DNA of 64,000 bases from Boletus sp. NGJ (Eukaryota > Basidiomycota > Agaricomycetes > Boletales > Boletaceae), in the NCBI GenBank assembly GCA_019096195.1, contig JAGTXK010000134.1, positions 372,001 through 436,000 of the forward strand. Reading direction: 5' to 3'. Below the pieces are notes generated by a model. The model was not told where the DNA came from, did not search any database, and saw only the letters and a list, made by a program, of their open reading frames with translations. Positions within the stretch are counted from its first letter, which is position 1; the number at the start of each line of letters is the position of its first letter. A program made the position numbers and the translations under genes. This document shows, piece after piece, positions 28,095 through 64,000 of this stretch.

Positions 28095-28096
28095 TA

Positions 28097-33128: not shown

Positions 33129-33132
33129 TGTA

Positions 33133-33719: not shown

Positions 33720-33949
33720 CTGTACCTACTTGTAGCTCACCATTGTCACCATACTATCAACTGATGTGAAAATATATATGTATTGTGGAAAACTCTAACA
33801 TATAAATGGTACTAGCTAATCCTCCACCTCAAACACAGAGATAGCTCCTCTGAACTTATCATTATCTTCTTCTTTTTCTGGTTATATCACAAAAACCATC
33901 CCTGTTCAACAGAGCATTGGTGTAGTCATGAATATAGCTGATTTACTTA

Positions 33950-40085: not shown

Positions 40086-40394
40086 TACAGGGGTGGGACA
40101 ACTTGGTCATATGTGGGCAGCATTCTGAACTTCATCCTCAGTAAATATGAGTGGCAACTTTGTGCCAAAACACAATAGTCTAAGTCTTATTTTGAGTTAC
40201 AAGAAAGCAAGGATTTGCTGGCTGGTCTTGGTTCATTCAACTGGTGTAGTCTTTCAGCAAAACATGACATATGTATTGACCATGCTTAAAACATAAAAAT
40301 AGCTGTTTTATATGGCTTTAGATACAGCATAGAAAAAGTCTTTGTCAAAATATTTGTTCAAAAAGAATGATTGAGTGGCAAAAATGCTATTTGA

Positions 40395-41080
40395 ATGAGT
40401 CAAACGATTGTCAGCAATAGAGTTAAATTGAGGGACAATGTGAGCATAAGACCTGAGCTGGTCCAATGGAAAAAACATCATCAAGATCCTCACCAGATGC
40501 ATGCTTTGCTCTCTGCAGCTGTTATGGACAATGAAGGGGGTACACCTTTTTCCCTCCCTTTCATACTCCCTCCTTTTCCAGTCATTGATGACTTGTGGGA
40601 AGACCTCTTATTTGACTCCTCAGAAATGACATGGGAGAGCTTCCTCATGGAAGAACATCTAGCACTTGGTACTTCCCTCAATGACACTATCTTCTAGGGT
40701 GGTGAACGGCCATCTGCAAGATCCCAGATCTCTCCAATGGCTATCCTCTCCATTCTATATCTCATTCATTTCCCATTTTACTCTTAAACCTATGCTTCAT
40801 ATCAGACACTGCCTCCTTGGCTATGTTCTCTCGTACATAGCCTGTGTTCCATCACTCCCAGCCTCATTCCCAATTCGGTTCTCCTTCCTATTTATGGTAA
40901 CTCTGCTTATGCCTGCCCTAAAGAAGCAAGCCCTACATATAGTTAGTCGATCCTCCCTGTATCTCCCAATCTTGATCTACACCATATCCCATGTAATTTA
41001 CCCAACTCTTGGTTTCACATTACTTCAGACATCTGTGCCCACTCTGGAAGTAATTACCCTCATGCTTGTGATACTCCTCA
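40395..41080 (+). repeat. unclassified repeat unit, copy 2
   Basis: Related to about 25,860-26,400. A 100-codon frame at 40,395-40,697 (ending ALGTSLNDTIF) lies at the left of the shared region, and the other copy keeps a partial, broken version (DDLLFDSS). It could be the 3' end of an unrecognised element's gene followed by a pyrimidine-rich tail. Confidence 0.4.
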
Positions 41081-41599
41081 CATTCACGTCGCACTTGTGC
41101 AGTATCCTCACTATCCCCTTGCATGCTTAGCCAGTAGCAACACCAATGCAGATAGGTTCTGCACTGATAGGACTGCGCCACTATCATCAAAGCCCAAGAC
41201 TCTGCCATTGATCATAGAGAGACTCCAACCAAGAGAGACTCTATGTAAAGCTAGCTGTCAGTTCCCATACCTAGGGAACTTGGGCCTAGGGAGCCATTTG
41301 CTCAAGTCCAGCTAGTCTGATAATCAACTAGGAGGTTGATTACTTGGGAACGTATCACCAAGTTACTTAGCGTAACAGCAGCATGTGAAGACCTGTAATG
41401 ACTTCTGTTAGACTATCATACTATGGTACAACATCTAGCCTGTGTGTGTAAATGAGAGCACAACTTGCACAAGGGATCCAAGTGCCTCTTGGGGAGGCAG
41501 GGCACATGATTAAGCAAATAAGAACAACAGAATGCCCTGTGTGAAGTCCAGGTCAAGCCAAAATTCTATACGAAAGCAACATACCTTGCAGCCTACTTA
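41081..41599. other. no gene seen
   Basis: Includes a small inverted repeat around CCTAGGGAACTTGGGCCTAGGG (41,270-41,292). No coding sequence is recognised. Confidence 0.35.
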
Positions 41600-42550
41600 T
41601 TGGCCATTGATGTGATTTATCCACCTATAGAATAGTAGTGTCATGCCAACCATATTTCCAGGTTCGATTAGGTGATTGGGCATGAACAGTGAATGTTGAG
41701 AAGGTCTCTTCTGGATAGTAATATGACCTTTGCTGGAGGCAAACTTTGTGCCAGACTTGAAGTTCAGAGAATGGAAGGCAGACATCAGAAGACAACCACT
41801 GTGGACCATCAAAAGTGTGAAAGTGATCAGTGCATGACATGCCTATGTGCTTCACATAGTCATCTAGTGCTGCACAGAGATCTGGGAGCTTGAACAACTC
41901 TGCAACTTCTTTAATAGACTTGTGGTGCCACATAGGGTCAATGTTAAGGTGAATGGCCATCAAGGCAGCAACAATGATGCAGGGTGGTGAGCTGTTTATA
42001 TCAGTAAGAGCACTGGCATTCCTTATAGCAACCTTAAAGAAATTAGTTGTCTTGTGTTTTGCTGACCACAAATCTTCCAATGCATTTCCATCATCATCAG
42101 CCTCAGGCTCCATTTCATTGTCATCAGATTCTACATCAGCCTCAGAGGCTTTTTTGTATGTTCAAAGAAACACTGCAGTCTCAAATAGCTAGAGCTTCTC
42201 ACCATAATCAAGGAAGCAGCAAATTTGGGCATCATAATCCTAATGGTTGGTCATGGAGGCTGGGTTCTTTACAACTTTAATATGAGCATGTTCAGTGGTA
42301 TCAGCAGACCACTGCAGTAACAATCCAACTTGTGCAATACTTGGAATGACATGTTACATCAGCTCCAACTTTGGGATGTGGAAATGGTCCAAAACTGTTT
42401 TCTGACCTTGATGAAGGCCATGGTCCAAGATCACTTGCTTGTGATCATAAAACTTGTCAAGCACTGCCTAGATCCTATTCCAGATTTCTAAAGTGATAGC
42501 TAGGGCCTGGAAGAAATACCTGAACTCCATAAGGGCACAAATTGCAGTGA
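41600..42550 (-). pseudogene. Plavaka transposase C-terminal relic
   Basis: Minus-strand remains of a second Plavaka transposase. From the high coordinate: FHIPKLELM-like text and QWSADTTEHAHIKVVKNPA near 42,390-42,240, then an open block ending LPFSELQVWHKVCLQQRSYY near 41,740. Earlier catalytic parts are missing, because the fold-back element begins at 42,554 exactly where the homology stops. It is a different region of the protein from most of the relic at 655-3480, so the two are not simple duplicates. Confidence 0.7.
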
Positions 42551-42553: not shown

Positions 42554-44698
42554 CATCAGTAAATATAGGATTTCATCATAATGCTTATAGTGCCATGGTA
42601 GTTTCATAGTAGTCATAGTAGTTTCATAGATAACTCATAGTGTTCATAGTCACATCAGTAAAAACAGGACTAACTGTCCAGTGCTGGACAGTACTGGACT
42701 GTAACATAGTGCTCATAGTGAGGGTCCAACTGGATAGTGGTTTGATAGTACTATGACAGTGTCTCATACTCTGTTCATAGTATGGCCATAGTCTGTCATA
42801 GTATTCTCATAGTATCTATCTCATAGTGTCTCATAGTATTCTCATAGTACTTCCATAGTGGTCATAGTGATGCCATAGTATACATAGTGGCTTAGCAATC
42901 CTAATCCTAATCCAATTTCAAGCCAATTCTAATTTCAAATTCAATCAAATATTAATTCTATTCATTCTAATTCTAATTCTAATCCCAGTCCAGTCCCAAT
43001 ACCAATTCTAATTCTAATTCTAATCCTAATCCTAATCCTAATGATTTACAAAGTGAAGTGTTGACTTTATGTAATGAGTAGAGAAGGATAAAATTGAGAA
43101 ACAAGAGGGTGTGGGAAGGTTTTTGAAGTCTGGCTTGTTTACATAAGAATGGTGGCACAAACATTGGCAAACAATGTCCGCTTTTTTCACACTGAGTGTG
43201 GGAAAATGGCCTTGGATATTTTTTGAGTGTAGGTCTACACTTTTGGTACACATTGTGACTACACTTTTACTACACTTTGGTGCGCATTTTTGATACACTT
43301 TTGGTACACTTTGTTTGCTACACTGTACTACACTCTGCTACACTTGTTTGCTTTTTTTTACTACACTCTATTTGCTACACTGTACTACACTCTTTCCTAT
43401 ACTTTTTGTACAACATTTGACTACACATTTGACTACACTTTTTGTGCACTTTTTGACTACACATTCTGTATGCTTTTGATTTAGGATTAGAATTAGGATT
43501 AGCTTAAAATTACTACTATGATTATGACTACTATGAATGTACTATGAATGCTATGAAATGCTATGATACTATGATACTATGATACTATGATACTATGATA
43601 CTATGAACACTATGAATATACTATGGATACTATGAATACACTGTCAATACTATGATACTATAAACACTATGATTTATCTATGAAACTACTATGACTACTA
43701 TGAAACTACTATGGCACTATGAGCACTATGATGAAATCCTGTATTTACTGATGGTATCATAGTATTGAAAGTGTATTCATAGTATTCATAGTATCATAGT
43801 ACCATAGTACCATAGCATTTCATAGCATTCATAGTACATTTATAGTAGTCATAGTCATAGTAGTAATTTTAAGCTAATCCCAATCCCAATCCTAATTCTA
43901 ATTCTAAATCAAAAGTATACAAAATGTGTAGTCAAATGTTGTACAAAAAGTGTAGGAAAGAGTGTAGTACAGTGCAGCAAAAATGCGCATCAAATGTAGC
44001 AAAAGTGTAGCAAACAGAGTGTAGTAAAAAAAAGCAAACAAAAGTGTAGCAGAGTGTAGTACAGTGTAGCAAACAAAGTGTACCAAAAATGTACCAAAAA
44101 TGCGCACCAAAGTGTAGTAAAAGTGTAGTCACAAAATGTACCAAAAGTGTAGACCTACACTCAAAAAAATATCCAAGTCCATTTTCTCAAACTCAGTGTT
44201 AAAAAAGCAGACAATGTTTGCCAATGTTTGTGCCACCATTCTTATATAAACAAGCCAGACTTCAAAAACTTTCCCACACCCTCTTGTTTCTCAATTTTAT
44301 CCTTCTCTACTCATTATATAAAGTCAACACTTCACTTTGTAAATCATTAGAATTAGGATTGGGATTGGGATTGGGATTAGAATTAGAATTAGGATTAATA
44401 TTAATAGAATTAATATTTGATTGAATTTGGAATTAGAATTGGCTGAAAATTAAATTAGAATTAGAATTGCTAAGCCACTATGGATGTATACTATGGCATT
44501 ACTATGACCACTATGAAAGTACTATAAGAATACTATGAGACACTATGAGAATACTATGACAGACTATGGCCACACTATGAATAGACTATGAGACACTGTC
44601 ATAGTTCAAACCACTATTTAGTTGGACCCTCACTATGAGCACTATGTTACTGTCCAGTACTGAACAGCACTGAACAGTTAGTCCTATTTTTACTGATG
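42554..44698 (-). mobile_element. fold-back element copy 3, interrupted by copy 2
   Basis: A reverse-oriented copy whose outer ends are CATCAGTAAATA at 42,554 and TTTTTACTGATG ending at 44,698. It is split after its first 99 bases by copy 2, and the two parts align with the expected continuous order seen in copy 1. Without the insertion it is about 1044 bp. It carries the same core, arrays and ends as copy 1. Confidence 0.75.
42653..43753 (+). mobile_element. fold-back element copy 2, nested in copy 3
   Basis: A 1101-bp forward copy from CATCAGTAAAAACAGG to TTTACTGATG, with the full set of CATAGT, TAATCC, core, TACACTTTT, GATTAG and ACTATG segments. Because it lies in the opposite orientation to its host copy, the two cores face each other and produce a large imperfect palindrome of about 2 kb. 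Confidence 0.75.
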
Positions 44699-44990: not shown

Positions 44991-45321
44991 CCATTCATCA
45001 GTAAAATTACATGCATCTTAATCTGTCTTATGCAGCTTATCAACTTGCACAACATTTCCAAATCTGACACAGATGTTGAAAAGTCATATGCCAGGAATGG
45101 AGTGCAAACAATGTGGAATGGAGCAGCAGATGTTATTCATGATAGTGGACAAAGAAATATAGTACAGTGGGTGGCTACGAGATGGCTACTGTGGTTAGGT
45201 AAGCAGTACTGTAGCAAGTGATTCTACTCCAACAATAGAAACAAATTCTAAGCTTCATTTTGTTGAAAAGTAAAATAGTTTGATTGTAGTTGATGTTTCT
45301 AATGTTTTGGAACACATAACC

Positions 45322-46190
45322 TGTTGGAGCAAGCAATTCAATGAACACTCCATTCTACCATATTTAGACTTTGGCATATCAACCAAACATACTTATATTG
45401 CAAGAATGCTCACTCAAACCTCACTCCATATGACTACAGTGTTGAGAGTGTGAGTATCCATTATTCATTTCATATTTGTATCTTACTCATCCTGTAATGT
45501 AGAGCATGTTCCCACTCTAGGTATGCATTGTCAATATACTCTGTACAACTACAGTGTTGAGAGTAGCATGTTCCCACTCTAGTCTTTATAGGTTATGAGC
45601 CCCGATATGCTGACTTGAAGGACTGTCCTCCCCTCACCCACTAGAGCAACATGCGATCTTTGAGCACACCCTCAACCAAAACTCCCATTTTTGGGGACCC
45701 CGTGACCCAGCGTGCATACATACACCTTGCTGACCCTCTGACCATCCTACCAGCATGGACACAAACATACTAAAAGGGAAAACTAGAGCATCATCAAAGA
45801 ACAGCCAAAATGTGCCAGTTCCATCTACCTTCTAGAACATGCCCACTGTCATCATGAGCTCTTCTGAAGAAGACTCCAATAGCCAAGGGCCTGCCATTTC
45901 TACCACATCGACCCTCAAGGCAATCAAGCTCAGTCTCAGCAACCTAGAGAAAATTGAAACCCTTGACATGGCCAAACACAACTGGCCACATGGTCCAAAG
46001 TGATGAGATGCCATTTCCTCCTTAACTCATGTGGCGGCTACATCCTAGGTCTCAAAGCTTGCCCCAACAACATCCTAGGCGCCAGAATCTGGGAACTCAA
46101 CAACATGTGTGTTATTGCTGCAATTGAAACCAGATGCACCCACAAAAAGACCATGGAAACTCATGTTTCAAGCATTAGTCTGGATTTGGA
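45322..46190 (+). mobile_element. Copia fossil C: 5' LTR and gag start
   Basis: An LTR (45,322 to about 45,588, starting TGTTGGAGC) is followed by a primer-binding-like GGTTATGAGCCC (45,591-45,602) and the first part of a Copia gag (SLSNLEKIETLDMAKHNW near 45,940; NNMCVIAAIETRC near 46,110). The rest is missing. The LTR is the same family as the 3' LTR of fossil A. Broken; moderately old. Confidence 0.65.
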
Positions 46191-46274
46191 GAATCGTTCA
46201 CAGCCACCAAGGAGAGTAGATTTTGGACAGAACAATGCATTAGCCATAGCATCTCCCCATATTCAAGGTGCATC

Positions 46275-46926
46275 ACATGCACCTTGCTCAGTCTCTTCTG
46301 TATCCATTGCACTAGGTCACACTCGCCTTGCTCGATCCTATCGTATGCATCAAGGTAAGTCATGCTTACACTGCTCGGTCCTGTTACATAGATCAGCAAG
46401 TGGCCACCCCCACCCTGCTCAGTCCTGCTATATCCATTGAGGTAAGCTGCTCTCACACTACTTGGTCTGGTCAAATGCAATAAGGTAAGTCACACCCATG
46501 CTTCTCAGTCACACTGTATGCATTGAGGTCAGTCACCCCCATATTGCTCGGTCCTGTCATATACATTAGCACTTGGTCACCTCTGCCCTGCTCAGTCCTA
46601 CCATACACATCAAGGTCTGTCATGCTCACACTGCACGGTGTGGTCATATCCATTGAGGCTGGTCACCCTCACACTGCTTGATGTGGTTGTATCCATCGGT
46701 ACTTGGTCACCCCCACCCTGCTCAGTCCCATTGTACGCATCGAGGTTGGCCATGCTCACACTGCTCAGTGTGGTTGTATACATTGGTACTTGGTCACCTC
46801 CACCCTGCTTGGTGTGGTCATAACCATTGAGGTCAGTCACCCTCACCATATGCGGTGTGGTTGTCTACATTGGTACTTGGTAACCTCTGCCCTACTCAGT
46901 CTCATTGTATCCATTGAGGTCAGTGA
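46275..46926. repeat. 87-bp-period satellite, left part
   Basis: Alternating ~43/44-bp monomers built on CTGCTCGGT, TATACATTG and GGTCACC words, giving a higher-order period of about 87-88 bp. The array continues on the other side of Copia fossil B at 51,782. Frames stay open on both strands because the unit lacks stops; they are not genes. Confidence 0.85.
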
Positions 46927-49900
46927 TATTGAACACAGTAGAACTCAGTCACTGTAGTAGACAGTTACTGAGGTGGTCATTACCTATTGAACACAGTAGG
47001 ACTAAGGTAATGTTAGTAAAAGTGTAGCTAATGAATAGTGTAGCTCACCTCAGTTACTATAGTAGACAGTTACTGAGGTGTGTAGCGTATGAAAAGAGAA
47101 CAACTACAGTCCAACATAATTATGTAATCAGTGTACTACTGTTTGTATCATATAGAAATCCTACACTCCCCCTCAAATGGAAGGGCATAGGCCAAGTTCG
47201 AAGGCAAAATGTTTTGCTTTGACACTTGGAAGTGCCTTAGTAAGAGTATCTGCAATCATGTTATTAGTAGGGCAGTATAGAAAACGAATGTGACCTTGTT
47301 CGACAGTGAAACAAATGAAATGGTATTGTATATCAATATGTTTAGTGTGTGTGTGAAAACTACTGTCCTTTGTCAGTGCAATCGCTGACTGATTGTCACT
47401 GTATAGAATGGTGGGTTGCTGGAGCGGTCCGAAGATCTCGCTGATGAGACAGTGAAGCCAGATGGCTTCCTTGGCTACGTGCGTGGCTGCAACATACTTG
47501 GACTCAGCAGTGGAGAGGGTAATGAGTTCTTGTTTCTTCGAGCCCCACAAAATTGCTCCCCCATCGACAAGGAAGGCAAATCCAGTGATAGCATGTTGGT
47601 GTTCCTGTGAGGCACTGTCTGCATCCACATAGCCAATGAGGCCGTGGGTCTGAGTACCGAATGTGAGTGTCCAGGTTTTTGTACCAAGGAGGTAATGATA
47701 GATTCGCTTGACGGCCTCCCAGTGGGCCAATCTGGGGTTAGCATTGAATTGGCAAACATATGATGTTGCAAACACAATGTCAGGTTGCGTGCCAGCTACT
47801 AGGTAGATTAGTGATCCTATTGCCTGGCAGTATGGGATGTTGCACATTTTGGCAATTTCACTCATTGTCTGAGAACCTTGTGATTCTGATAGGTGAAGGT
47901 TGGGGTTGAGGGGAGTTGTGACTGGCTTTGCATCGACAAAGTTGAACTTCACAAGGATGGCATTGATGTACGGTTCTTGGGAGAGGGAGATGGTTTGCAC
48001 ACGTCAATCTCGTGTGATCTTCATCCCTAGGAGCCAACTGATGGGTCCTAGATCTGTGATACGAAAGCACAAGCCGATTTCGGCTTTGAAGGCTTTGACA
48101 AGTTCCTTCAAGCTTCCTGTGACCATACAGTCATCTACATGAGACGCTAAAATTAAAATGTGCATGCCGATGAGTGCAACGAATATTCCCCAGTTGGCTT
48201 CCATCCGCTTGAACCCTAATTCAGCTAACTCCTTTGATAGTCGTAGATACCATTAAAGAGCACCTTGTTTAGATCTGTAGAGGTCAATGCAGAGCTTGGC
48301 AATGAGGTTGCAGCCATGTTTGTTGAATCCGGATGGTAGTTCCATATAGATTATTTCATCGTCATCTAATTTCCTGTTGAGGAAAGCACTGTGGAAGTCG
48401 AAGACATCGATGTCCCAGTCTTGACGAGCTGCAATCGCGAGGATGAGATGGATAGATGAGAGCCATGCAACAGGTGCGTATGTTTCATTGTAGTTGACAC
48501 TGAGTTGCTGTGTGAAACTGCACACTACTAGGTGTGCCTTGTACTTGTCAACTTCGCTGGCTGCATTCTTCTTTATTTTAAAGACCCATTTGCAGCTGAC
48601 CATGTTTGACTTTGCAGGTCGTTCGACAATGTCCCAGGTGTGCACATCATCAAGGCTCTTCAACTCGGCATTTATTGCTTCATCCCACTTTGCCCAATCC
48701 AGTTTCCTTTGTGCTTCTGCTATCATTGCTGGCTCCAATGCTTCTGTATCAGTGACTCTGGCTACCATGGCGTACACCACTCTATCATTGTCAAATTCCC
48801 ATGCACCTGTGGCTGTGCCATTATCAATGGAGTTATTGGTATCGCTGTTCTCACTGCGGTCATTGCTTGCACCTCCACTCCTTCCTTTCTCACTCCCACT
48901 CTAGACAGCTTGGATACCTCGAGGAAAGGGTGGGCCACCTGTTCATCCATCTTGGGTACCAAGCTGATTGTGCAGTGCTTGTAGGTAGGGTGATTCTGTT
49001 CGCTTTTGGCTCAAACATCTCAGCTTGTTTTGAGGTGCTGGTATCTCAAAGTTGGTGCCTAGGTGGTTGTTGTGTGGTGTGTTTGAGACTGGAGGGATTT
49101 CTGGAGCTTCAGGTATGTTCATTTCCTGTGTGTCTTGAGCAGTTGGCTGATGATTTTTGTTCGCCTGCTCATTCTCCCTTTCGCTCGTGATGCCAACAGG
49201 GCCGGTGGTGGCGTTGTCATGGCGTTGAAACGTCACATTGCGCTCAACTGAGACGGTGTGGCGGTCTGCAAGATAAATGCGATGGACTCCACTGTCAGGA
49301 TCATACCCAACCCAGTGGCCCTCGCATGTCAAGCTTCGAGCCATTCACATCATGTACCCAGCAGTGTCCTCCCCACACAGGTAAGTTTCCTATGTTTGGC
49401 TTCTTGTTATGCAGCATCTCGTATGGTGTTTTGCCGTCGAGTGCTCGTGTTGCTGACCTATTCTTTACCCAGACAGTATGCGAGATAGCCTTGCCCCACA
49501 GCGTTTTAGGCAGTCCGCTAGCATGTAAGACCACACATACCCATTTGATCAAGGTTCGGTTTAGGCGTTCCGCAACACCGTTGTGTTGTGGGGTATTGTG
49601 AGTGGTGAGTTTTCACTCTGTACCCTTGGCTTTCAAATGATGAGTAAACTCGTTACTTAAGTACTCCCCCCCACAATCCGACCTCAACTGTTTAATGTTG
49701 GTGTTGTGCTGGTTTTTTGCCCAAGCCTTGTATTGGTGGTATGCCTCAAACATTTCAGACTTAGCCATTAAAAGGTACAGGTGGGTGTAATGTGTGTGAT
49801 TGTCTGTAAATGAGCAGTAGTAGGTCTTCTTCGACAGCATTTGTGTTGGTGATGGTCCCCACAGGTCGGTGTGTATTTCATCACCGAAGTTATCGCTACA

Positions 49901-51781
49901 TTTTGGGTTATGATCCTTCCCTATAGGTTTCCATGTCACTTTTCCATACTCACATGCTTCGCATTGGCCCATAGAGGTATGGTCCGGGTGTAGTTTCACA
50001 CCAGTAATCATGCCTTTGGCTAGCATTTTGTGAATGGTGGGTGTGCTGATATGGGATAGTTGAATGTGCAATTCCTCCATGGTGAGTATTTTGTCGGTTT
50101 TTACAACACCTGCAAATGGGGTAGAGTATTGATTGTGGGTTCTATAGAGGCCGTTTTCAAGTGGTACTTCACCAAGCATGCACTTTTTCGAGTTGAAGAT
50201 TCGAAGAGACTTATCACAGAACAAGGCAGTGTAGTTTGCACTGGCAAGTCAGCTGATTGAGACAAGGTGACCTTCATAGACGGTGTATATAAGACATTCT
50301 TCAAGAGGATGTGGGACTTCCATTTGCTGTTGGGTAAGTAGATATGAAGGTTCTCTTTTCCAATTGCATTGAATGTGTGATTGTTAGCTGACCATATTGG
50401 TTTGGGTGGGATAGTCTTGAAATTGATGAAGTGATTGTGAGCTGGTGACATGTGCTGTGATGCACCGCTGTCATACAGTTCAGTGACTTCACTCGACAAT
50501 GTGGTGCCATCATGTACAAGCGTTGCATAGCTCAGGGATGGTAAAAATAGTTCATCGTCATGTGTTTCAGACTCAGATATTTCTGCGAGCCATACACCGT
50601 CTGGTTCGGTGGTGTTTGCCTTTGGTGATGACTTCCCCTTGCTGTTCTGTGAATCTTTCGACTTCCTTCCCCATGACTTCCAACTCTTTGGGGCTTGGCC
50701 TTCCTTGCCTCCTCCTTCCTCCCAGTAGTCTTTGTCTCGATGACCTGTCCAACTGCAATTGCCACATTCACCGGTGTAGCGCTTGCGCTTCTTGCCCTTT
50801 CCCTTTTTGGATGAGTTGGCATTGAATGCAGTGTCATCGGATGGTTTCGCTTTCGACTTGCCAGAGTCTTGTAGGGCGAGGCGGTTGTATTCATCAGTGA
50901 TGAGGCCAAGAAGGGTGTCGGACGAGATAGTTATATTATTGAGATTTATGGTTGACAAGATGGAGGATAGGATGGAGTTGTATGAGCGAGGTAAGGATGC
51001 ACAGATGATGCTGAAAAAGGTCTTGTTCTGAGACAGGATTTCCGATGGTAGCAAGTTCTTTGTGCAACACTAGGACTTTGTTTATGTGCGTGCGCACATC
51101 ACTGCCTTCCTTCAGCTTCACCTTGTTGAGTTACCATCTCAGCTCAGTACCTATGACCAGCAACCGCTTTTCAAACATTGCTGCCAAGGCTTCATAGAAC
51201 TCTTGTGTGGTTTTCTTCTGCATGAGATGCATGCAGAGAGTATTAGGGAGTGTGGTCAGGATAATGTGATGGGCTGTAGCATCCTTCTTTCGCCATTCAA
51301 TCATGTCCATCTCGTACTTCTCGGCTTCAAGTTTCTCATCTGCTGTGGTTGGTTTCCACATTTGAGATTTGCTGAGTGACAGATCTGTTGGTAGACTTTT
51401 GGTTCTGTTGAGGTAACCGCTCAGGTCGTGTGTTTGGAGTGCGCAAGTGAGTCAGAATTTCAAAGAGGTCCATTCTTTTCCAGTGGCATCGAGTTTGGGA
51501 AGTTTAAAATCTTCCGGCTTCAACAAGGATGTGGTTTCAGGTCTTCAAGTTGGATTTCTACTTTTGGTCTACTCAGGCTTTCAAGCCAGGGCTCATAACC
51601 TATTGAACACAGTAGGACTAAGATAATGTTAGTAAGAGTGTAGCTAATGAATAGTGTAGCTCACCTCAGTCACTGTAGTAGACAGTTACTGAGGTGTGTA
51701 GCGTACAAAAAGAGAACAACTACAGTCCAACATAATTATGTAATCAATGTACTACTGTTTGTATCGTATAGAAATCCTACA
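46927..51781 (-). mobile_element. Copia fossil B, both LTRs, inserted in satellite
   Basis: A Copia-family LTR retrotransposon on the minus strand with all usual parts: 5' LTR (51,601-51,781), gag with a zinc-knuckle-like segment near 50,730, protease and pre-integrase region (about 50,560-50,150), integrase (about 50,220-49,300), reverse transcriptase and RNase H (about 48,780-47,173), purine tract and 3' LTR (46,985-47,165). The outer side of the 3' LTR carries a partial duplicate of LTR sequence (46,927-46,984). The flanks read AGTGA and AGTGG, a likely 5-bp target duplication. The LTRs differ at about 8 of 180 positions, mostly transitions, so it is fairly recent. The coding region is broken, with several interruptions. 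Confidence 0.85.
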
Positions 51782-52730
51782 AGTGGCACTCACACCGCTT
51801 GGTGTGGTTGTATACATTGGCACTTGGTCACCTCCACCCTGCTCGGTCCCACTGTATACATTGAGGTCAGTCATGCTCACACTGCATGGTGTGGTTGTAT
51901 CCATTGATGTCAGCCACCTTCACCCTGCTCGGTGTGGTTGTATACATTGAGGCCAGTCACCCTTACCCTGCGCAGTGTGGTCATCTACATTGGTACTTGG
52001 TTACCTCTGCCCTGCTCAGTCCCATTGTACACATCAAGGTCGGCCATGCTCACACTGCTTGGTGTGGTCATATACATTGGCACTTGGTCACCTCCGCCCT
52101 GCTCGGTCCCACCATATCCATTGAGGTCGGTCATGCTCACACTGCTCGGTGTGGTCGTTTACATTGGTACTTGGCAACCTCTGCCCTGCTCAGTCTCGTC
52201 GTATCCATCAAGGTCAGCGACACTCACACCACTTGGTGTGGTTGTATGCATTGGCACTTGGTCACCTCTGCCCTGCTCGGTCCTACCATATACATCGAGG
52301 TCTGTCACCTCCACCCTGCTTGGTGTGGTTATAACCATCAAGGTCAGTCACCCTCACCCTGCGCAGTGTGGCCATCTACATCGGTACTTGGTAACCTCTG
52401 CCCTGCTCAGTCTCATCGTATCCATCGAGGTCGTGACACTCACACTGCTTGGTATGGATGTATACATCAGCACTCGGTCACCTCCACCCTACTCAGTCCC
52501 ACCGTATACATTGAGGTCGGTCACCCTCATACTGCTTGGTGTGGTCGTATCCATCAGCCCTCAGTCACTCTCAACATACCTGGTCTCGTTGTATACATCA
52601 AGGTCAGCCATGCTCACACTGCTCAGTCCTGTCATATATATTGGCACTTGGTCACCCCCACCCTGCTCAGTCCCATTGTATGCATTGACCTCAATCTTGC
52701 TCACCCCACCGGGGGCTGTTTCATATCTAT
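51782..52730. repeat. 87-bp-period satellite, right part
   Basis: Continuation of the array at 46,275-46,926. Period measured from the ACTTGG word at 51,996, 52,083, 52,170 and 52,257 is 87 bp. Two overlapping plus-strand frames of more than 330 codons run through it and are artefacts of the period being a multiple of three. Confidence 0.88.
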
Positions 52731-52911
52731 TGATCCTTCATCTAGTTACCCTTTCCAGGCCCTTCCATATCCTATGTATATGCATGTTAGGTGGGCCTGG
52801 CCATGTCTTATGCATCTCATATATCTCGGGCCTATCACAGTATCATCCGTACATGTCAGGTGTTTTGCAAGCAGGCTCACTGTATGCTATGGGCAAATTT
52901 GACTGCATTAT

Positions 52912-55900
52912 GTGCAGAAACATGCTACTCTCAACACCGTAGTTGTATGGAGTATATTGACAATGTGTACCTAGAGCAGGAACATGCTCTACATTACAGG
53001 ATGAGTAAGATATGAATATGAAATGAATAATGGACACTTACACTCTCAATACTGTAGTCATATGGAGTGAGGTGTGAGTGAGCATTCTTGCAATATAAGT
53101 ATGTTTGGTTAATATGCCAAAGTCTAAATATGGTGGGATGAGTGTTTGTTGGATCACTCGCTCCAACACTCCTCCTCGATCCAATGATTGTAAACTGAGG
53201 CAGGGACAAGAAATAGATAAGAAGTAAGATAAGGAAAAGGAAAGAACAGAAAAGCGAAAAATCACTTCAAATTTATACTCTATTCGAAAAGGGAGGGCTC
53301 CTCCTGCAGCACAGGAGTCACCTCTTGGAGGCCTAAAAGAGAACAAAGGCCTATAAAAGCCAGTTGGGGGAGGGCCTTTGTGAAAATGTTGGCCAGATTC
53401 CCTTTTGAGGGGACGTAGTGCAGTTGAATATTCCTGTTGTGGACTTATTCTCTGACATAGTGATATTTGGTGGAGATATAACAGGTATGAGAGTGGAAAG
53501 TTGGGTCCTCGGACAAGGTGATTGTACCTTGGTTATTGCACATCAGCGGCATCATAGTCAGTTGAGGGAATTTGATGTTGCGTAACAGGGATCACAACCA
53601 CATGCACACTTGAGTCACATCGCAGGCTGCAGCGTACTCGGCCTCGCAAGTCAAAAGAGTGACACATTTCTATTGGTGGGTGGCCCAGGTGACAGCCCCA
53701 GAACCAAGGTTGAAGCAGTAGCCACCGAGTGAGCGTCTGGTGTCCAAACATGCAGCAAAGTTGAAGTTGGTGTAACCACAGAGACATGCAGAATTCTCCC
53801 CCCCTAGTGTTAGGCGAATCGTGCAAGTACCTTTGAGGTACTGGACAACCTGCTTTGCGGCCTCCCAATGTATTCATCTATAGCAGTCAGAGAAACGACA
53901 CAATTGTTGCACAGCGTAGCAAATGTCAGGTCTGGATCCTAGTGCAATGTACATGAGGGACCTGACCAATGACCAATAGGGAATGCAGTTAAGCTTGGCT
54001 GTGAGGTCAGCATTCAGGGTGTCTGTTGGTTTGGTCAAATGAATCTGGGGGTCCATGAGGATGTTGCAAGGGAAAGCATTACTCAAGCCAAACTGTGCAA
54101 TAATACAGTCAATGAGTGCTGTTTGAGAAAGGGAGACAGTTTGGGAGGGACAGTCCCGTTCGATGGCGATTCCAACACAGAATCAGGCAGTGCCATCGTC
54201 AGAGAATTTCCATACTGTTCTGAGTTTGTCCTTGAATTCCTTTAAGGCCTCTGGTAGGTTCCCTATCATGAAGAAATCATCAACATGGATGGCCACTATT
54301 ACAGTCTTGTTTTCACGTCGACGGTAGTAGATGCAGTGTTCACATGCTAGGCAGGTAAATCCCCATGTGGTAAGTTGCGAGTTAAGGATCTGATTCCATA
54401 CACGGCCTCCTTGTTTCATACCATAGAGTGCCTTTTGGAGTTCCCAGATCCACCCCTCCTTTCCAGCTTCCTCGAAAGCTTGGGGTTGTTCCATACAGCA
54501 AACCTCTTTGGGGTCTAGTACTCCATTCAGGTAGGCTGTTTTGATGTCGAGTTGTTCCATTTCCCAGTCAAGTGACGCTGCGATATGTGTGAGGATGCAG
54601 AAGGACTCAAGGTGGACAGTTAGTGAGGAGGTTTTTGTGTAGTTCTGGCTGTATACCACAGTGTATCCCCTGCATATGTACTGGGCCTTAAAGCATGTAG
54701 GACGGCCATGTTCATCACATTTAAGTTTGAACATGGGGCACCCTCGCATGATCCTTTGACCTGGGGGTACATGTGAGCGAGGGACAAGTTTGTACACACC
54801 CATGTCTCGAAGGGATGAAAACTCCTCCTTGAGGGTGCAATGCCACTCATTTGCAAAGGGGAACTGTTGAGCCTCCATCCATGAGGAGGGATCATCAGGG
54901 CAATGAGAGTTCAGGTCAATGGGCAAATCATCAAAAGTAACCAGAACCTCCTCGTCAACGTCATCCATATCTTCAGTAACAGTCAGGCCAGGAAGGTCCA
55001 CATTATTGGTGGGAGGCTCTGTCATACCCACAAAAGGCACACTGATGCTCTCATATAAATGTCATAAAGGTATGGGGTGCCAAGATGAGCACCAAGGAGA
55101 GCTGGGTGCTCCATTGACATGGGCAGCACCACCTCCAATCAGGTCAGGCATAGGTTGAGGGCTAATCGGAATGGCTGGCTTGATGCAATGGGATCTGTGA
55201 GTTTGAGAGGATGTTTTGTGAGATTCAATGAAGGAGACATGGAAGGAGTTGAACACCTTCCCACTCTCATAGTGGAATAAATGGTAACCAAGGGAATCCA
55301 GTGGGTATCCGATGAGGACACACTCAATAGACTGGTTATAAACTTTGGGGTTGTGGCTGTTTTGGATAAGAGCAAATGCTCAACAGCCAATTTCATGCAA
55401 ATGTGATAGGTCGGATTTCCGGCCAAACCAGCATTTGAAAGGTGTAAGTCCAGACTGTGATTTTACAGGTGTCCTGTTTGTCAAATAGCAAGCAGTTAAT
55501 AGGAATTCATCCCAACAATTCACAGGTATGTTGTAGGCAGAGCGCATCACACAGGCCTTCCCCATAAGGGTGCAGTGCACTCACTCAATGCAATCATTTT
55601 GAGTGGAAGTGTGTGGTGTAGTAAATTGATAAACAGTACCACAGGAGGCGAACCATTCACAGAGGGCAGTGCATTTAAGCTCTCCATTGTTGGAACATAA
55701 TATTTCAACACAAAGAGCAGCCTCCTATTCACAGGTGCATTCTCAGGCCAGAAATGCATCACATGCATCCAATTTAGCAGCCAGGGAGATGGACCAGCAG
55801 TAGGAGGAGTAGTCGTCAATGATGTTCAAAACATACTTGTTACCATGAGAGGACACATGGTCCAGATGTTCCAAAATGTCTACATGCACAATTCCTAAAC

Positions 55901-57464
55901 GACGGTCTGATCTCAATCCCTAACACACTTTTGGTACACTACAATGCGTCTGTTTTCCTTTGATGCAGTGTTCACAAACCCCAGGGGCAACCTGAAGGTT
56001 GGCATGAATACCTGTAGCACGGTTCTGTTTTAGTAGGTTGTACACAGCACGGAAGTTGGCATGGCCCAACCAGGAGTGCCAAGTCTCCAATGTTGCCCCA
56101 TGTGTCACCAGCAAGGAGTGCTCCACCGAAAGTTCACTGCTGGTAATAGAGTACAGCTAAGACACTGTAAGAACGCCAGATAGGAGCTGAGAGCCAGTGT
56201 GGGAATTGACCCAGCAAGCACCTGTGGAGAAGTGAACAGTACTCTGGGAAGAGGCTGTGAGACAGGAGACAGAGATAAGATGCACAGTCACTGCAGGAAC
56301 ATAAAGGATGTCATGGAGCATCAGATGAAGTCCCTTAGCGACCACAAGACAGATAGTGCCCAAACCAACAGCTTGAATAGATGATCCACCGACACCATTG
56401 ATGTGGCATGGCGTGATAGTGTGTAAGGTATAGAAGTTACTTGCTTGGTTGCTAATGTGGACAGAGGCACCACTGTTGATGTAGAAAGGAGTGAGTGTGG
56501 GGTCGATCGTGGACAGTTGTCACTGTGCAGGCGCATTACAAGCAAGGGCGGAGGGATTGACTGGATGTGAGTGAGTAGACCAGTCCAAAGAGGCGGTAGG
56601 AGGAGTTAAGACCAGCAAGGCACTAAGTTCGAAATCATCACTGTCAGGTAGGGTGGCGATGTTAGCAAAGGGTGGGCTGTTGCTCACAAGCCCTACAAAC
56701 TCAACAGACACGGGGGCTGGGACAGCGCCCCCAGTAAGTGGGGCAGAGTTGTTGGAAGACTGTGCCATGAATATGGCTTCGTGAGTCACACTGTCCAAAA
56801 TGTATGCTCGTCCACTAGTGTCGTAATGAATGCCTGGTTTTGTGACCTTCGCAACAGTACCACCTCCTGGCTTGAGGTCTCGACCAAAGATTCACTTCAC
56901 TCGCTTTTCAGCGATGATGGCATCCCTCTGGCTGGCACGGCCCCCACCCTCATACCAGCATTGATCTGTAGTATGTCCGTGTCCACTGCAGTTCCCGCAA
57001 CAGATGGAATGGCCCAGAGTGGAGCAAGTTGAACACTTCTTTGAGTTCCCTTTGTTGGTCTTTGTGGTGGTTGTGGCCAGGGTGAGAGACTGTTGTTTTC
57101 TTTCACCATCAAGTAGTTGTTGTTCCATTTCAAGGTGACAGAACACATGTATGCTAGTGTAAGATTCATCAGTGGTGCTAGCATTGATACAGTTGGCAAT
57201 GTGGTTGCGCAACAAGGGGAACTCACTAGAGAGTGGATTCATAAGGATGATAAGGCAGAAGTCATCCTCTTTGGGGATGCCAATAGCATATATGCGGGCA
57301 ATCAGGTCTTGAAACTTGGTGGCGACAGTAGTAAGACAGTCAGCTTGTTGAAATTGGACCTCAAAAGCTTCTTGTATAAGGAGGATTTGGGCGACTGGTC
57401 TGAGTTTCTTGTGTCGAGCCTGTAAAGTGTCCCAAGCGATTTTGGCATTCATGAGGCCATGCAA
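52912..57464 (-). mobile_element. Copia fossil A, 5' end missing
   Basis: A second Copia element on the minus strand: gag from its interior (57,464 down) with a zinc knuckle near 57,000, pre-integrase and protease region (about 56,550-56,150), integrase (about 56,100-55,380), reverse transcriptase (about 55,040-54,190), RNase H (about 53,880-53,430) and 3' LTR (about 52,912-53,168). No 5' LTR is present; the element stops at the edge of the dioxygenase relic. The LTR matches that of fossil C. Broken, with several interruptions; older than fossil B by appearance. Confidence 0.8.
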
Positions 57465-57539
57465 GTGGTGCGGAACCTACCACTCTATATATTTTCCTGA
57501 TTCCTGCTTTCCCCGATCCTCTCAGATCTTCCTTTCATC

Positions 57540-58790
57540 ATGAGCCCCCCTGAAATTCCCAACAATTGGGCCATCTCCTATACCAATAAATTGGCTGCCT
57601 ATATGGTTTCTAGATTTCAGAATTCCCTGCCATCTACCAATGACAACAGTCAGCCAAAAATTCCTCCTCTGTGCATTCCCATGCAGACAGTTTGCGAGGC
57701 AAACAGGATGGTCAGCATCATTTCAAAAGCATATCAAAACAAGGGTATGGCTCTCATATTTGATGATGCCCCACTCATTCCCACCCAGTGATGATCAGCA
57801 ATGTTGACATCATTCAGCTTGGTGAATGGATCAAAAGGAGGGGACATTTAATGGTGCCATCGGACACCAATGATCAGGAATATACCACGCTCACCAAACC
57901 CACAGTTGTTACTGATTGTTCAGGCTACGTCTTACTTTGGTACTTACCTGGTGCAATCAGCCACCCTAATCAAGTAAGTATATCCCCGGATTCTGCAACC
58001 TTCTCACTGATAGATCAATCAAGCGATACATCTGGGAACAGCTACCACTGCTGTCTGGGCCTCTTTCCCACAGTGTGACTGGAAATACTCACTGGCACAT
58101 CTCAGAGGCAAACTTCCACCCTATGGCAAAGCTGCAAGGGACGATCAACCTATCCCCTGCTTGGTTTCAACAGGGCCGAAATGTCAGTGTTTATTTGGCT
58201 TTTCCTCTTTTTCATTAACCCGACATCTGTCAACAGGGGGGAAATGGACCACTCGAGGTCTCAGCACTGCTCAAGGCAACCAAAACCGATAGTGGAGCAC
58301 ATGAATGGCTGCTGGCCATGAAAGAGCATTCAGCTCTTTTGGCAGCATCAGTTGCCATCCTGCATCCTGAAATGTATGATTCGGGTCGGGAGGTATTGGT
58401 TCGGCTTGGCAACTGGGTGGCCACACAGGAGGACCTTGACATGAAGGATGTACTTCCTTTGTGGTCATCAGTGTATAATGTTGTTTCTGTCATGGCTAAC
58501 TGAGCTAGCCCATTTCACACCAATATAAACGGAAGGCCCTAGTGGTTGGATCTTCTCATCTCAGTTGGCAACTACACCGGGTTAGATTTTTTAATCCCCA
58601 CCATCAAGCATTGGCTTCGGTATATCCCAGGGACAGTGATCGCATTCTTGGGGCAAATGCTCAAGCATGGAGTTGGTCAAGTTGCAGGGGAGCGGGGGGT
58701 GCTCTCATAGTACATGCGGGACAATGTCCATGAATACATGGATGTTTCCCACTGTAATTACATGAAATATGAGATCTGGGGAGGACGGTA
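57540..58790 (+). pseudogene. TET/JBP-like 2-oxoglutarate/Fe(II) dioxygenase relic
   Basis: Decayed member of a family found in agaricomycetes that I place with the TET/JBP dioxygenases, which oxidise 5-methylcytosine or thymine in DNA. Start ATG at 57,540 with a TATATATTT box near 57,482. Ordered blocks: VVTDCSGYVLLWYLPGAIS (57,910-57,965), then, after a probable intron, HWHISEANFHPMA and GTINLSPAWFQQG (58,095-58,180), and, after a second intron, EVSALLKATKTDSGAHEWL, LHPEMYDSGREVLVRLGNW and LPLWSSVYNVVSVMAN. The catalytic part follows: an HxD-like site now reading HTN (58,516-58,524), YIPGTVIAF and LKHGV near 58,640-58,680, and YMRDNVHEYM near 58,710. In-frame stops occur at 58,501 and 58,537 and just before YMRD. 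It lies tail to tail with a KDZ transposase. Confidence 0.6.
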
Positions 58791-60849
58791 AAGAATAGGT
58801 AGGCAGTCAAAGTTGGACGTAGATTTGTTGCCTTGGTCTGTGCTTGGTTAGTCATATTTGCCCAACTCGGCCAAGATATCGCCAGGTAAAGCTTGAATTA
58901 CAAATTACAACCTTTAACTATGGACAAGGAGTCTGGATCACAGGCCAAGCATGCATCATCAACGCTTCTGAAACAGTTTCCGCAACTGAACCATATCTAC
59001 CCAAGACTCTGTCATTGTCACCTCTGTCTTTGCAAGCTTGGCGATATTTTGCTGAAGCTCAGCCAAAATCCCAGTTACCAGGGCATCCAGCCAAGCATTG
59101 TGAGCATTGTCCAATGGAGACTCATCCATTGGCCAATAGTCCTTGTCATGAATTAGCTGACAACCAAGACCCAAGCAATCCATATATCTGGAAGAAGATT
59201 TCCACCCTTGCAAAGGAATCAGAAATGAAGAATTGAGATGCCTTGAGGTGATAGTCCAGAATGTTGGCCACCCACCATGGATGCTCGAATCCAAAGGTGG
59301 GAGCACCCACACTTGGCTGCCAACCTGGCAAGAGCTCTGGGGTTCACTTCATGCCATTGAGGTTAATTTCGGAGGTGGCACAAATGATGTCCTGTTGGAG
59401 ATCCTCTGGACTGGTGCTGACTTTGATGAATTGGGCACAGGATGGGGTCGGCGGAGGTATGGTGTGCATGGGCGCATATAGGCCTAAGTAAAAGGCCAAG
59501 ATGTTCTGCAAATCAATAATGTCAAAGGGCCAATCTGCGATGTGAAATGGGGAAAACATACCAATTCCATGATCATGTTATCATGCCAAGTTGCTGGCCA
59601 CTGCTTGGCAGGAAGTCATGCAAGATGTGCCACAGCCACTTCAATCCAGCACTTCTGATACCACAGCATCATGTGGAGAGTGGTGACAGGTGTATTGTCA
59701 GAAAATGTTTCCATGGCAGGATGATGAGAAATGGGGAATATTATGAAATGGAGGGTGTGGAGAGACTGTGGTTATATATTCTGCCCATGCAGACCTCAGA
59801 ATATCCCAGATTCATCAACAATGTGTGACAGTTTCAGACAGACTGTGTATTTTTGTTATGATATGACATCTACTTATAAAAAGAGGCTACCATCCAACGT
59901 CTCCATAGAGTGTGTCTCTCGGCAGCTTTTCCACTCCACCCAACACTGCTCCCAAAGTCGAGCATAGATGGCCTGCTGGCGGACAGCATAGCATGTTTTT
60001 CCTTGGCCGTCATTCTGTCAACTGTATGCTGCATGCCCTTTCCATTCCCTTGATTTGTGGTTGAAGTAACCAATGGTCCGTTCAAACTCGGCCATCAGTA
60101 GCTCTGCCTCCTCTCCCTACCGATCCATTGTGGCTTTTGCATGCAACCAATGTACCCAGTAGACTGTAGATATATATAATGTCAGCAGAAAGGTCTCATG
60201 AGAATGTGGAACTTACATTCGGACATCCAGTCGTTCATCTTGGTGTCCCCTAGTATATCCATCGACCAGAACCAGGCCATGTTGTTGGTGCAATGATTGC
60301 AGGAGTTGGGCTTGGTGACCACAGTGCTAACCTTAAGATCCTTGTCCTTCAACACCTGATATCTGGCCAACATGTCATCCTCAGCTGAAAGATTTATCAT
60401 GGCAGATTGGCATTTCTGATATATGGCAACTTGCTGAGCAAGTAAGGCATCCACGGTGTTCATCTTTCCCCAAGCCCTGGTTGTCTTCACATGGCTTGAA
60501 GCATGCCGAACATCAGTGTGGAACAACACTGCCTTGTTTGCTAACATGAGCCAGATTTCATGTAAGGCATCATTTGCTTGGCCTGCACGAAGTTTGAGCT
60601 CCTGTTTAATCAAGTGGTGAGCACCGATCTCCATGCACTTGTCATGACCCAGGTTAGATGGCAATGGCAGCTTTGCCTGATCAGGTCATTTAGCTCCGAG
60701 ATCATTGACCATATCTTCACCTCCAATATTACTGTCTCTGTCAGATATGTCTGATTCCAAATCGTCATCATCCTCCAACCGAAGGAATGTGAAAGGAACT
60801 TGCAATGAATGAAGGAAAGAACCTAAACCCAATATCTGAAGCATTGCTA

Positions 60850-61857
60850 ACTAAAGCAATATGCGACAGAGAGAAAGGCAATTTCAAGGCTAAGCGAGAC
60901 ATGGTACTCTACTGGCTACTTATATACTACCGATAGTGGCGCACGGACCATGCTATGCTATGACGTCGCGAGTACTGGGTATGACATCACAGGAATGAGG
61001 AAATGTTAGTGTCCAATAGCGAAAAGGGAGAAATGATGGAATGAGATGCATATGGTATGCGCATGTAAGTGAAATGTAGTCCGGAGTGCTCTAGGTGTGG
61101 CTACGTGTGATATATCTAAAGGGGAACTAATAGATAGGAATGGAGATGAGAGGCAAAAGGAGGAAATGAAAGGATGATGTGTAAGGCATCGTATGGGGTG
61201 ATCGTTGGATCTGGTATTGAGACGAGATCGTATCGGGTGATAGATCGGGTCTTGTCTATGTCTAGGGGCTAATCTAGCATGGGCTTGATTAGTACTTGGT
61301 AACGGTATTGTGGGATAGTGTTGGGCGTGACCTATGGCGTGAGCCAGGGGTTGGGGATCGAGCGGGGGATTCGGGGATCTGGAGGCAAGCTCCTGATTAG
61401 TACTTGTGTAGTGTACCGAGTGCTGTGTCAGGTACGGTCTACGGGTGATGTGCGTGTAATGCGTGTATATGTGACAAAGGGGTTGTTGTCATTGTACAGG
61501 GTGTTATGGCATGTGATGTGGCTACCGAGCACTGCTTCAGGTAGATCCACAAGGGGAGGCGTAGTTTATAGGCGTGCAGGCCTTGTGTGGATACCGAGCG
61601 CTGCTTTAGGTATGTCCATGGGGTGTGGCAGTTTAGAGGTGTGTGGGCCTATGCTTGTGGCGATGAACACCGGGGTTAGCCGTGAGGCTACTTGGTGCGG
61701 TGTATCGTATGAGGAAGGATATGATGAGTGACTACTCTAGGTGTATGCGGGGTTAGGCTAGGATGGAGGTTGGGTGAGGGTAGGCGAGTGTATCGTCTGT
61801 AGGTGGTATGAAAGTGTAGGTGGGGTTGCTAATAAATAGGTGGTATAATTGGTGATC
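60850..61857 (-). mobile_element. unclassified insertion in the KDZ gene
   Basis: About 1 kb of CpG-rich sequence interrupts the CpG-poor KDZ reading. The reverse strand has a TATATAAG core near 60,930 preceded by AGCATGGTCCGTGCGC (60,939-60,954), the same 16 bases found before the TATA core of the solo LTR at 32,646-33,128. Inside, TACCGAG...CTG...AGGTA motifs recur near 61,415, 61,515 and 61,590. Exact ends and a target duplication could not be fixed. A related LTR or LTR-derived element is likely. Confidence 0.45.
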
Positions 61858-62055
61858 ATTTCAGAATGTGGAAGCTTCAGCAAGGAAGCATGAAATTTCA
61901 GCAGCCAGCCAATCGGCTCAGCAGGCAAGGGCTAGCTGTTGAAGTTCGGTGGCCTTGGAAGCCATCTGTCTCATATCTCTGCAGAGTGATATCTGCACCT
62001 CCTCAATTTTCAAACCATTTGCAAGCCATGTTGCAGCTCCACAGTGGGCTGCCGG

Positions 62056-62688
62056 TGTTACAACTACCCTGGGTAGGGACAGGCGTTAACTTGGACGGTC
62101 GAGTAGCATCAAGCTACCAGGGTCGAGAGGGGTAGCTTCAACGAGCTACGATACGGGAGAACCCTTGGTAGGGTCGAGGCTTTGACGACGAAGGGGAGTC
62201 CTCGTCGTAGGGTCAAGGGTTCGGCGACAAAGGGTCTTCCTAGTCGCGGGGTCAAGGGTTTGACGACAAAGGGTCTTCCTAGTCGTAGTCAAGGGTTCAC
62301 TCAAAGAGTGAAGACAAGATGTAGAAGAAGCGTTCACTCGAAGTGGAACGACGACTTTTTAGAGGTCCGGAGAGGCGATGATGAAAGTTCACCAAGTAGG
62401 TGTAAATTGTGGGATCGACTACAGAGGTAGGGTTTATATACATGCTGAGGCATGGGAAAAGGATGACTAAGCCACAACACCGGAAGGATCCTATGGAGTG
62501 GGAAATAGAAGGGATCCCCCGTGTGGAGTCAGTGTAGAAGTACAAATGATGCACGAGGTGCGAAGGTCGGCCTTGACTACACGGAGTCTCACTGTGTAGT
62601 GAATGGTCCAAAGGGGATCCAAGAGGACGAGGCATGGACGAGGACGATTGAAGAGAAGGAAAAGGAGGAAAAAGTAGGAAACATAACA
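62056..62688 (-). mobile_element. solo LTR inserted in the KDZ gene
   Basis: A 633-bp LTR with forward ends TGTTACAAC and ACATAACA, flanked by the 5-bp duplication GCCGG (62,051-62,055 and 62,689-62,693). A GTATATAAACC core lies on the minus strand near 62,435. On both sides the KDZ text is continuous across the insertion point. CpG-rich and young. Confidence 0.85.
62171..62297. repeat. 39-bp tandem repeat inside the solo LTR
   Basis: Three units beginning GGGTCRAGG at 62,171, 62,210 and 62,249, plus part of a fourth, each containing GACRAAGG and CCTMGTCG words. Confidence 0.85.
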
Positions 62689-64000
62689 GCCGGTGCGTGA
62701 GTTACACTCTCAAGCATTTCCCTCTCAACGGCCTGTATGGTTGGTGCTGTACTCAGCAATGCATAAGCAACAGTCTGAGCTCTGTGGTGATATGCACCAT
62801 GTCCCAACTCACCTTTGTGTAGCTGCACCTTGAATATATCCATTGCCAACGGATCACTGATGTGTCTCTCCAAAGCCCTCTGCTCCTCAACCAGCCACTG
62901 CTGTCTTTGAATGTGGGCAACCCCCCCATTAAGGGCACGGAATGTCACCCTTGCTGATGCAAATGATTTCCACACAGCCTTGAGCTTCCTTGCCAGAGTT
63001 CTGGCTGGTATCAATGAGTACAGGCAGGATAAATGGGTAAACAACCACAGCAGAACATACACATTCTGATCATTTTGATAAAATTGGAATCATTCATTTG
63101 AAAGTCAAGAAGCTCTTGCCGATGGGGGGAGGTCATTCCTTGGGCAGACCTGGACACAATGTTCAAAGTAGACCATAAGGTCTCAATGATCTCACCATCA
63201 ACCCATCCTGCCCCAGGAATGAACAAGGGGGAGTACCGAGCAAAACATGAAGATTGATGTCCATGCACATGCCACACCCCGTGGCCAGATTTGGCAGCAG
63301 CCAAATGAACCTGTTATCACTTAGCCAAGCTTGGAGCTATGCTGGCCCAGATGAATCAACCATGGAGGAAGAAGATTCAGTTTGACAGGATTTGAGGAGC
63401 CCATCCGTCCCCTACAGTGAGTGGTCCAAGAGCAAACAAGAAGCTAGGGACCTTCCTCAGAAAACAGTGTCATTCAAGGTGGGCGCTCCAACACGCAGTA
63501 TGGCATCAAAAGTGCATTTAGGTGCTTCATTTCGCTGATTCAGTGAAAGGATTAACCACAAGAAAACCCCAAATAGAGAGTGGTGGTGACCAAAGGGGCC
63601 AAAGTGAGGTGGATGGGCGACTGAGGCCAATCAATATTCGGACCTCAGTAAATGGTAAGTGGTTAATGCCCTCAGATATCACATTGTTGATGCGGTGGAT
63701 GTGTCCTTGTAGTGGGGCGACCACCAACCAAGAATTCAAAGAATGTGTCTCACCATCTGCAAAAACCATTTCAAAGTTGGACTGCCAAGAAATGCCAAGA
63801 AGGCAGATCAGGTAACTCAGGAGAATCCTGTCAGACATATTGGGCACAGGGATGAGATACTGGTGCACAGAAGGAACATTCGTTGCTAAAACCGACTTTG
63901 AAGAGAACCACCCCAGGCAACGATGATGACCGAGGTATGTGACTTGATTTCTCTCCAGATGGACTCAGCAAATCCATCCGACAATACAGCTTTAGCACCA

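Follow-up and report, generated by a model that had tools for sequence, protein, structure and literature searches.

The window analyzed here, a stretch of 64,000 nucleotides from the 32.8-Mb genome of Boletus sp. NGJ (C133:372001-436000), very probably contains the remains of a Kyakuja-like transposon of the KDZ superfamily that carried a gene for a CcTet-like dioxygenase of the TET/JBP family as its permanent cargo, and whose dioxygenase (referred to below as TET) may well have oxidized 5-methylcytosine (5mC) on the element itself. At the level of sequence, comparisons between this copy and its relatives in the same genome establish the common termini, the 7-bp target duplications, the convergent orientation and co-inheritance of the TET and KDZ genes, three additional genes, the inverted arrays of short repeats and the kinds of damage that are described below. 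Given this identity, the oxidation of 5mC on the element, by which its expression or mobility might have been maintained, is a reasonably probable function for TET.

A whole-genome profile search placed the Tet_JBP domain (PF12851) at positions 58282-58713 of the plus strand of the window, with an E value of 2.6e-10 and a score of 43.9 bits (cut-off, 34.9). The match lies in a broken gene (57472-58791) in which the metal-binding HxD pair is replaced by HTN and in which the last exon is interrupted, within the Tet_JBP match, by one TGA and two TAG stop codons. Homology to the 12 other copies of its subfamily begins at 57472-57473 and, at 87.7-92.2% identity, is far above chance. The fragment 58219-58500 by itself yielded a Pfam E value of 0.24 at best and no credible match in the PDB. 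The identity of the gene is settled, and an earlier reading of the window made from its letters alone (the sequence-only reading) was correct in assigning it to the TET/JBP family, because the genome search was tolerant of stop codons and because a better-preserved copy, L024, also gave clear matches. The last exon of TET from L024 matched 7vpn, which is CcTet of Coprinopsis cinerea, and 8jkk, which was deposited under the general name of a JBP1/TET oxygenase domain protein, with E values of 6-7e-17; these were the sole solved sequences matched by that exon at E values up to 1, and CcTet is by sequence the nearest solved structure. Exon 1 of the same gene gave no credible match in the PDB, and the profile PF20515 (2OG-FeII_Oxy_6) found no match in this genome or in the control genomes, and is hence uninformative. 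Among the 21 TET loci that were compared (the window copy and 20 of the 22 others, leaving out C44 and C27), most retain the positions characteristic of CcTet: HxD is intact in 17 and lost in the window copy, L030, L032 and L034, position 337 (CcTet numbering) is Asp in all 21, and position 331 holds Gly (10 loci), Ser (6) or Arg (5), as counted by eye in the register of the alignment between L024 and CcTet. The window copy departs from CcTet in its HTN sequence and its three stops, and stops or frameshifts are frequent among the TET copies in general.

The genome searches detected at least 23 Tet_JBP matches, 18 of them above the curated cut-off, and at least 88 matches to KDZ exons, all match counts from such searches being lower bounds. 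When the listed matches were joined across gaps of up to 6.5 kb, 23 clusters contained TET and 17 of these also contained KDZ; one of the latter (C73:490860) merges two adjoining elements and was dropped from the count of pairs, such that TET is convergent with KDZ in 16 of 23 cases. Of the 16 pairs, 14 have their two matches 2.5-3.6 kb apart, and the spacing is larger in the window (4.4 kb) and in C42 (6.4 kb); for 9 of these pairs, one or both of the shared termini were detected. The tail-to-tail arrangement for which the sequence-only reading proposed a search of the genome does recur there, and the copies do not end short of the dioxygenase, an outcome which that reading had named as evidence against itself; the left terminus of L023, for example, is ~1.2 kb upstream of TET. 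For another 27 clusters with KDZ, the matches listed include neither TET, g3, g4 and g5 nor a terminus within 6.5 kb (g3 to g5 are the companion genes discussed below), and these clusters are probably other KDZ families. The TET loci form three subfamilies, designated A (n=13), B (n=6) and C (n=2), with the window copy in A, most members of B at 70-77% identity to it and those of C at 65-71%; the same layout of TET and KDZ is common to all three, although the subfamilies differ by 25-35%. Pairwise distances for TET and KDZ agree across 16 copies (Mantel r 0.987 for 120 pairs, a value reached in 0 of 2000 permutations) and also inside subfamily A (r 0.84, 45 pairs), and the two genes have therefore been inherited together. 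Two of the TET-KDZ elements, L021 and L023 (C133:35194-49170 and 56454-70007), lie in inverted orientation ~7 kb apart and are 95.8% identical across 9.1 kb, as though they had come from an inverted duplication.

The element begins with 5'-CACATRATG... and ends with ...CACATGGGCTC-3', and 40 places are listed in a search with the right-end sequence. The ends are 16.1 kb apart in copy C33, 16.2 kb in C97 and 17.6 kb in C68, and full-length copies measure 16-18 kb. In the six copies for which both ends were read (C33, C97, C68, C73, the window and C3), the left end starts with CA in five (TA in C97) and the right end closes with TC in all six. Over their outermost 21 bases, the two ends cannot be aligned with each other; inner inverted repeats start at base 22 and are 90% identical across 178 bp in C33. 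Target duplications of 7 bp are perfect in C33 (CACCATT on both sides) and C97 (CATCAAG on both sides), and are matched at 6/7 positions in C68 (TTGCTAA/TTGCTGA) and C73 (GTCCTCC/ATCCTCC). In the window copy, the left and right flanks (GTTTCTG/GTTCCCA) agree at 4/7 positions, and the right one matches at 7/7 an empty site within the window: the sequence to the right of the element, GTTCCCACTCTAGTCTTTATA, continues a copia long terminal repeat (LTR), and the undisturbed partner of this LTR, from window position 45322 onwards, runs uninterrupted through GTTCCCA, which can thus be recognized as the target before insertion. The host copia is itself flanked by TAACC (window 45317-45321) and, past the right end, by TAATC, with one mismatch in five. 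Judged by these flanks, the window copy is inserted in an LTR of the copia. The right-type end is also found on the left side in L020, L033 and C101, and left ends of this type in L020, L033 and L054 indicate that the two types of terminus can occupy either side of an element. In addition, two members of subfamily B on different contigs, L022 and L026, share the same ~40 flank bases just upstream of the left terminus, and may belong to a segmental duplication or lie within two copies of the same repeat.

Inside each end there is an array of degenerate units of 43-44 bp, with periods of 43, 87 and 130, and the arrays at the two ends of one copy are inverted relative to each other (84.5% identity across 634 bp in C33). 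We analyzed 129 units from nine stretches, five of them from C33 or the window and four from other copies. Three dinucleotide columns of the unit consist of CG, TG or CA in 124, 122 and 120 of the 129 units, with both TG and CA common in each column, whereas among five control sets of dinucleotides no printed column (with the parent under 60%) had both products common. From this difference, the array unit probably once had about three CpG sites.

The KDZ gene of the window, on the minus strand, was confirmed by a match to PF18758 at 63083-63286, with an E value of 1.3e-14 in the genome search and 2.5e-16 for the reading frame alone. Its stop lies at ~58950-58961 and that of TET at 58789-58791, so that the sequence-only reading was right about both of these tail-to-tail genes and too short in its estimate of the gap, which is ~165 bases rather than 100. 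In L024, the sole copy scanned for it, a CxC2 domain (PF18803), a common companion of KDZ in fungi, lies upstream of KDZ (E 3.1e-13), in a region that has been deleted from the window copy. The order of genes in the element is left array, TET(+), KDZ(-), g5(+), g3(-), g4(+), right array, and is kept in 9 of the 10 clusters that hold TET, KDZ, g5 and g3, leaving out of the count two clusters that merge neighboring elements; the tenth, C17, is rearranged at its far end. Genome searches with g3, g4 and g5 found 40, 48 and 40 matched stretches, respectively, and the pieces of these genes that were scanned had no Pfam match with an E value below 0.04. The ratio of nonsynonymous to synonymous substitution (dN/dS) for g4 is 0.40-0.57 in six pairs. 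The off-frame controls are unambiguous in the pair C33-C97, at 0.82 and 0.83 vs 0.40 in the true frame, and mixed in the pair C33-window, where one of the two falls as low (0.49) as the true frame (0.57), such that constraint on g4 is moderately supported. The corresponding value for g3 with C97 is unusable on account of an alignment that was out of register.

The anatomy of the window copy is that of an element taken apart by several events. The undisturbed LTR of the host copia, with the empty target site and the start of gag, occupies 45322-46149 (+) and was cut at ~46150 by an inversion of 11.3 kb (~46150-57471), whose breaks lie in the gag of the copia and in the left arm of the element. 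The element does not begin at 57540, as had been supposed, since its left arm was inverted and now lies at 46153-52914, and the right terminus of the element is at C133:441005, 5 kb past the window. The inner half of this arm, with the repeat array, is at 46153-46926 (-); a second Ty1/copia element, whose LTRs match at 46977-47165 and 51593-51781 (189 bp, 95%), lies inside the array at 46927-51782 (-); and the outer half is at 51783-52914 (-), where the left terminus, 5'-CACATAATGCAG, reads leftwards from 52914. There follow the decayed left target duplication at 52915-52921 (-; GTTTCTG for the GTTCCCA of the right copy and the empty site) and the remainder of the host copia at 52922-57471 (-), comprising gag-pol and the LTR entered by the element, all of it moved by the inversion. 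At the first inversion break, a copia copy from another locus, L046, has uninterrupted sequence (its positions 1-163 correspond to window 45987-46149 and 166-600 to 57471-57037 on the opposite strand), as copies of subfamily A have at the second. We considered the copia at 53-57 kb as an insertion into the element, and rejected this because of the contiguity of L046 and the empty site in the partner LTR, which together place the element inside the copia and mean that the inversion cut through the two of them. The inversion must be later than the insertion of the element into the copia LTR, the one order among these events that the data fix.

Downstream of TET, the 3' part of the KDZ gene extends over 58950-63338 (-). 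Two probable solo LTRs lie within it, one at 60790-61863 (TGAAA...TTTCA, with a 5-bp duplication GAATG) and the other at 62056-62688 (TGTTA...TAACA, with GCCGG). Their observed/expected ratios for CpG are 0.83 and 0.92, respectively, inside a CpG-depleted element, and this near-normal content suggests that they are probably much younger than their surroundings. KDZ homology stops at 63338 and does not continue to the end of the window, as the sequence-only reading had it: the junction 63338-63339 marks a deletion of ~4.06 kb relative to C33:22991-27050, by which the N-terminal part of KDZ and most of g5 were lost, and the 3' part of g5 occupies 63339-64000 (+), to be followed beyond the window by g3(-), g4(+) and the right terminus. 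With its HTN sequence, three stops, ~4-kb deletion, two solo LTRs and inversion, the window copy is dead, and the earlier proposal of a dead copy of a composite TET and KDZ element is borne out by this damage together with the shared ends, target duplications and co-inheritance. Outside of the element, positions 42653-44698 form an imperfect palindrome of 2 kb, with 83% inverted identity and composed of short tandem repeats such as TACTATGA and TACACTTT; part of this palindrome is 94% identical over 132 bases to the sequence that flanks the C33 copy on its right.

The decay of the family has a distinct direction. Among the 13 copies of subfamily A, at sites where the dinucleotide was kept in at least three copies, CpG transitions were counted at 390/830 (C-to-T) and 383/823 (G-to-A), or 47%, vs 2.8-6.9% in other contexts. 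For observed/expected CpG, these 13 copies span 0.14-0.42 and the two copia elements present in the window 0.33-0.47, and the ratio is 0.90 at window 10001-20000. The elements thus bear the mark expected from CpG methylation, and the genome has five DNA-methylase-domain matches above cut-off, on three contigs.

Fungal TET/JBP and KDZ genes are said to have been the subject of reports in PNAS in 2014. DNA transposons of the Kyakuja group that carry TET have been published, with the families Kyakuja-1_LB and Kyakuja-2_LB (Kojima 2025, PMC12730594), and the present element is a further example of this known kind. As far as the main text of that paper describes them, Kyakuja elements share with ours a KDZ transposase and an AG-type TET in one element, for which Asp337 and Gly/Ser331 are typical when it is Kyakuja-borne, as well as a 7-bp duplication, a 5'-CA start and dissimilar outermost bases at the two ends. 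By the same description, they differ in that their right end is ...TG-3' rather than ...GGGCTC-3', and in that the Laccaria families have no terminal inverted repeats, whereas inner inverted repeats start at base 22 here. Since the termini are not of the type 5'-CA..TG-3' without inverted repeats, we refer to the element as Kyakuja-like KDZ and not with certainty as Kyakuja. Zisupton, of the same superfamily, also has a KDZ transposase, but is described in that text as having 8-bp duplications along with inverted repeats at its termini, as opposed to the 7 bp found here. The inverted subterminal arrays and the three further conserved genes go beyond what parts of PMC12730594 say of Kyakuja, with no mention there of such genes or arrays, and in its main text the words "subterminal" and "ORF" occur 0 times (the sequence supplement is excluded from this statement). 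We do not claim that these features are unpublished, because our literature search covered TET, KDZ and Kyakuja rather than g3-g5 and the arrays.

Certain observations weigh against the interpretation given at the outset. The flanks of C3 (GATCTCA/AATTTGA) agree at only 4/7 positions and give no support for a duplication; a KDZ partner is absent for 7 of the 23 TET matches; and CpG ratios of 0.34, 0.38 and 0.13 at window 1-10000, 20001-32000 and 32001-42000 mean that CpG depletion is not specific to the element. Furthermore, in samples that are small, CpG transitions make up 18-31% of the differences in six pairs of elements, 25% in one pair of copia gag and 9-11% in two pairs of copia LTRs, and because these shares are alike in element and copia, lasting protection by TET is not visible. 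The solitary TET genes might be taken to mean that the TET fragment and the KDZ element are chance neighbors, but this explanation, to which we attach almost no probability, is already refuted by the 16 convergent pairs, the layout common to three subfamilies and the co-inheritance; moreover, the single KDZ copy seemingly without TET that was examined, C101, owes this appearance to an internal deletion that begins where TET starts and reaches into the 3' part of KDZ. The many TET copies with stops or frameshifts, and dN/dS values within subfamilies of 0.29-0.58 (five pairs in A), 0.31-0.41 (three in B) and 0.51 (one in C), could be accommodated by a TET gene that was functionless dead weight copied along with the element. 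This too is very improbable, since dN/dS is 0.17-0.22 in four pairs between A and B (of 15 TET pairs in all), with off-frame controls of 0.91 and 1.97 in the one A-B pair so controlled, and 0.16 in one B-C pair. Synonymous distances are close to saturation among the subfamilies, and saturated in the one A-C pair; the A-B and B-C values show past selection on TET within the element.

According to the scheme that we favor, in which TET was a selected cargo of the transposon, the KDZ transposase would have moved the element and left the 7-bp duplications (the scars are observed, and the role of the transposase is that expected of its family), and TET would have oxidized 5mC at promoters and CpG-bearing end arrays during the active phase of the element, as suggested by the enzyme family, the past constraint and the CpG decay. 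In a host whose repeats are methylated, oxidation of 5mC might then have preserved the expression or mobility of the element. Relief from methylation is plausible in view of the CpG-specific decay, the DNA-methylase-domain matches in the genome and the past constraint on TET. A purpose other than such relief, for example the removal of N6-methyladenine (6mA), the use of an oxidized mark as a signal or a role in transposition, is possible without being the likelier outcome. CcTet is reported to be active on both 5mC and 6mA (in parts of PMC12730594 and PMC13297926), and the residues named for that activity are present here (Gly/Ser at 331 in 16 of 21 copies and Asp at 337 in all); the CpG decay shows no visible lasting protection; and oxidized 5mC, which has been mapped to transposable elements and TET genes in Laccaria and Coprinopsis, has been tied to the regulation and silencing of transposable elements (in parts of PMC8889193). 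On the other hand, the mutation spectrum is like that of DNA targeted by CpG methylation, and CpG positions are present in the end arrays. These arrays might conceivably be the natural cis target of TET, doubtful as this must seem. A still more elaborate scheme, of a transposon with five genes in which methylated arrays block the transposase, the element's own TET clears them and g3, g4 and g5 are further parts of the machine, strikes us as rather unlikely. The methylation-sensitive subterminal repeats of the plant transposon Spm/En bear a resemblance to such gated arrays.

For TET as a selected part of a KDZ transposon, the case can be made from anatomy: the termini, the target duplications, the empty site and the co-inheritance support the view that the gene is a fixed component of the element. 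The CpG-bearing arrays and the three companion genes are places in which to seek how a transposon-borne demethylase might target its own DNA.

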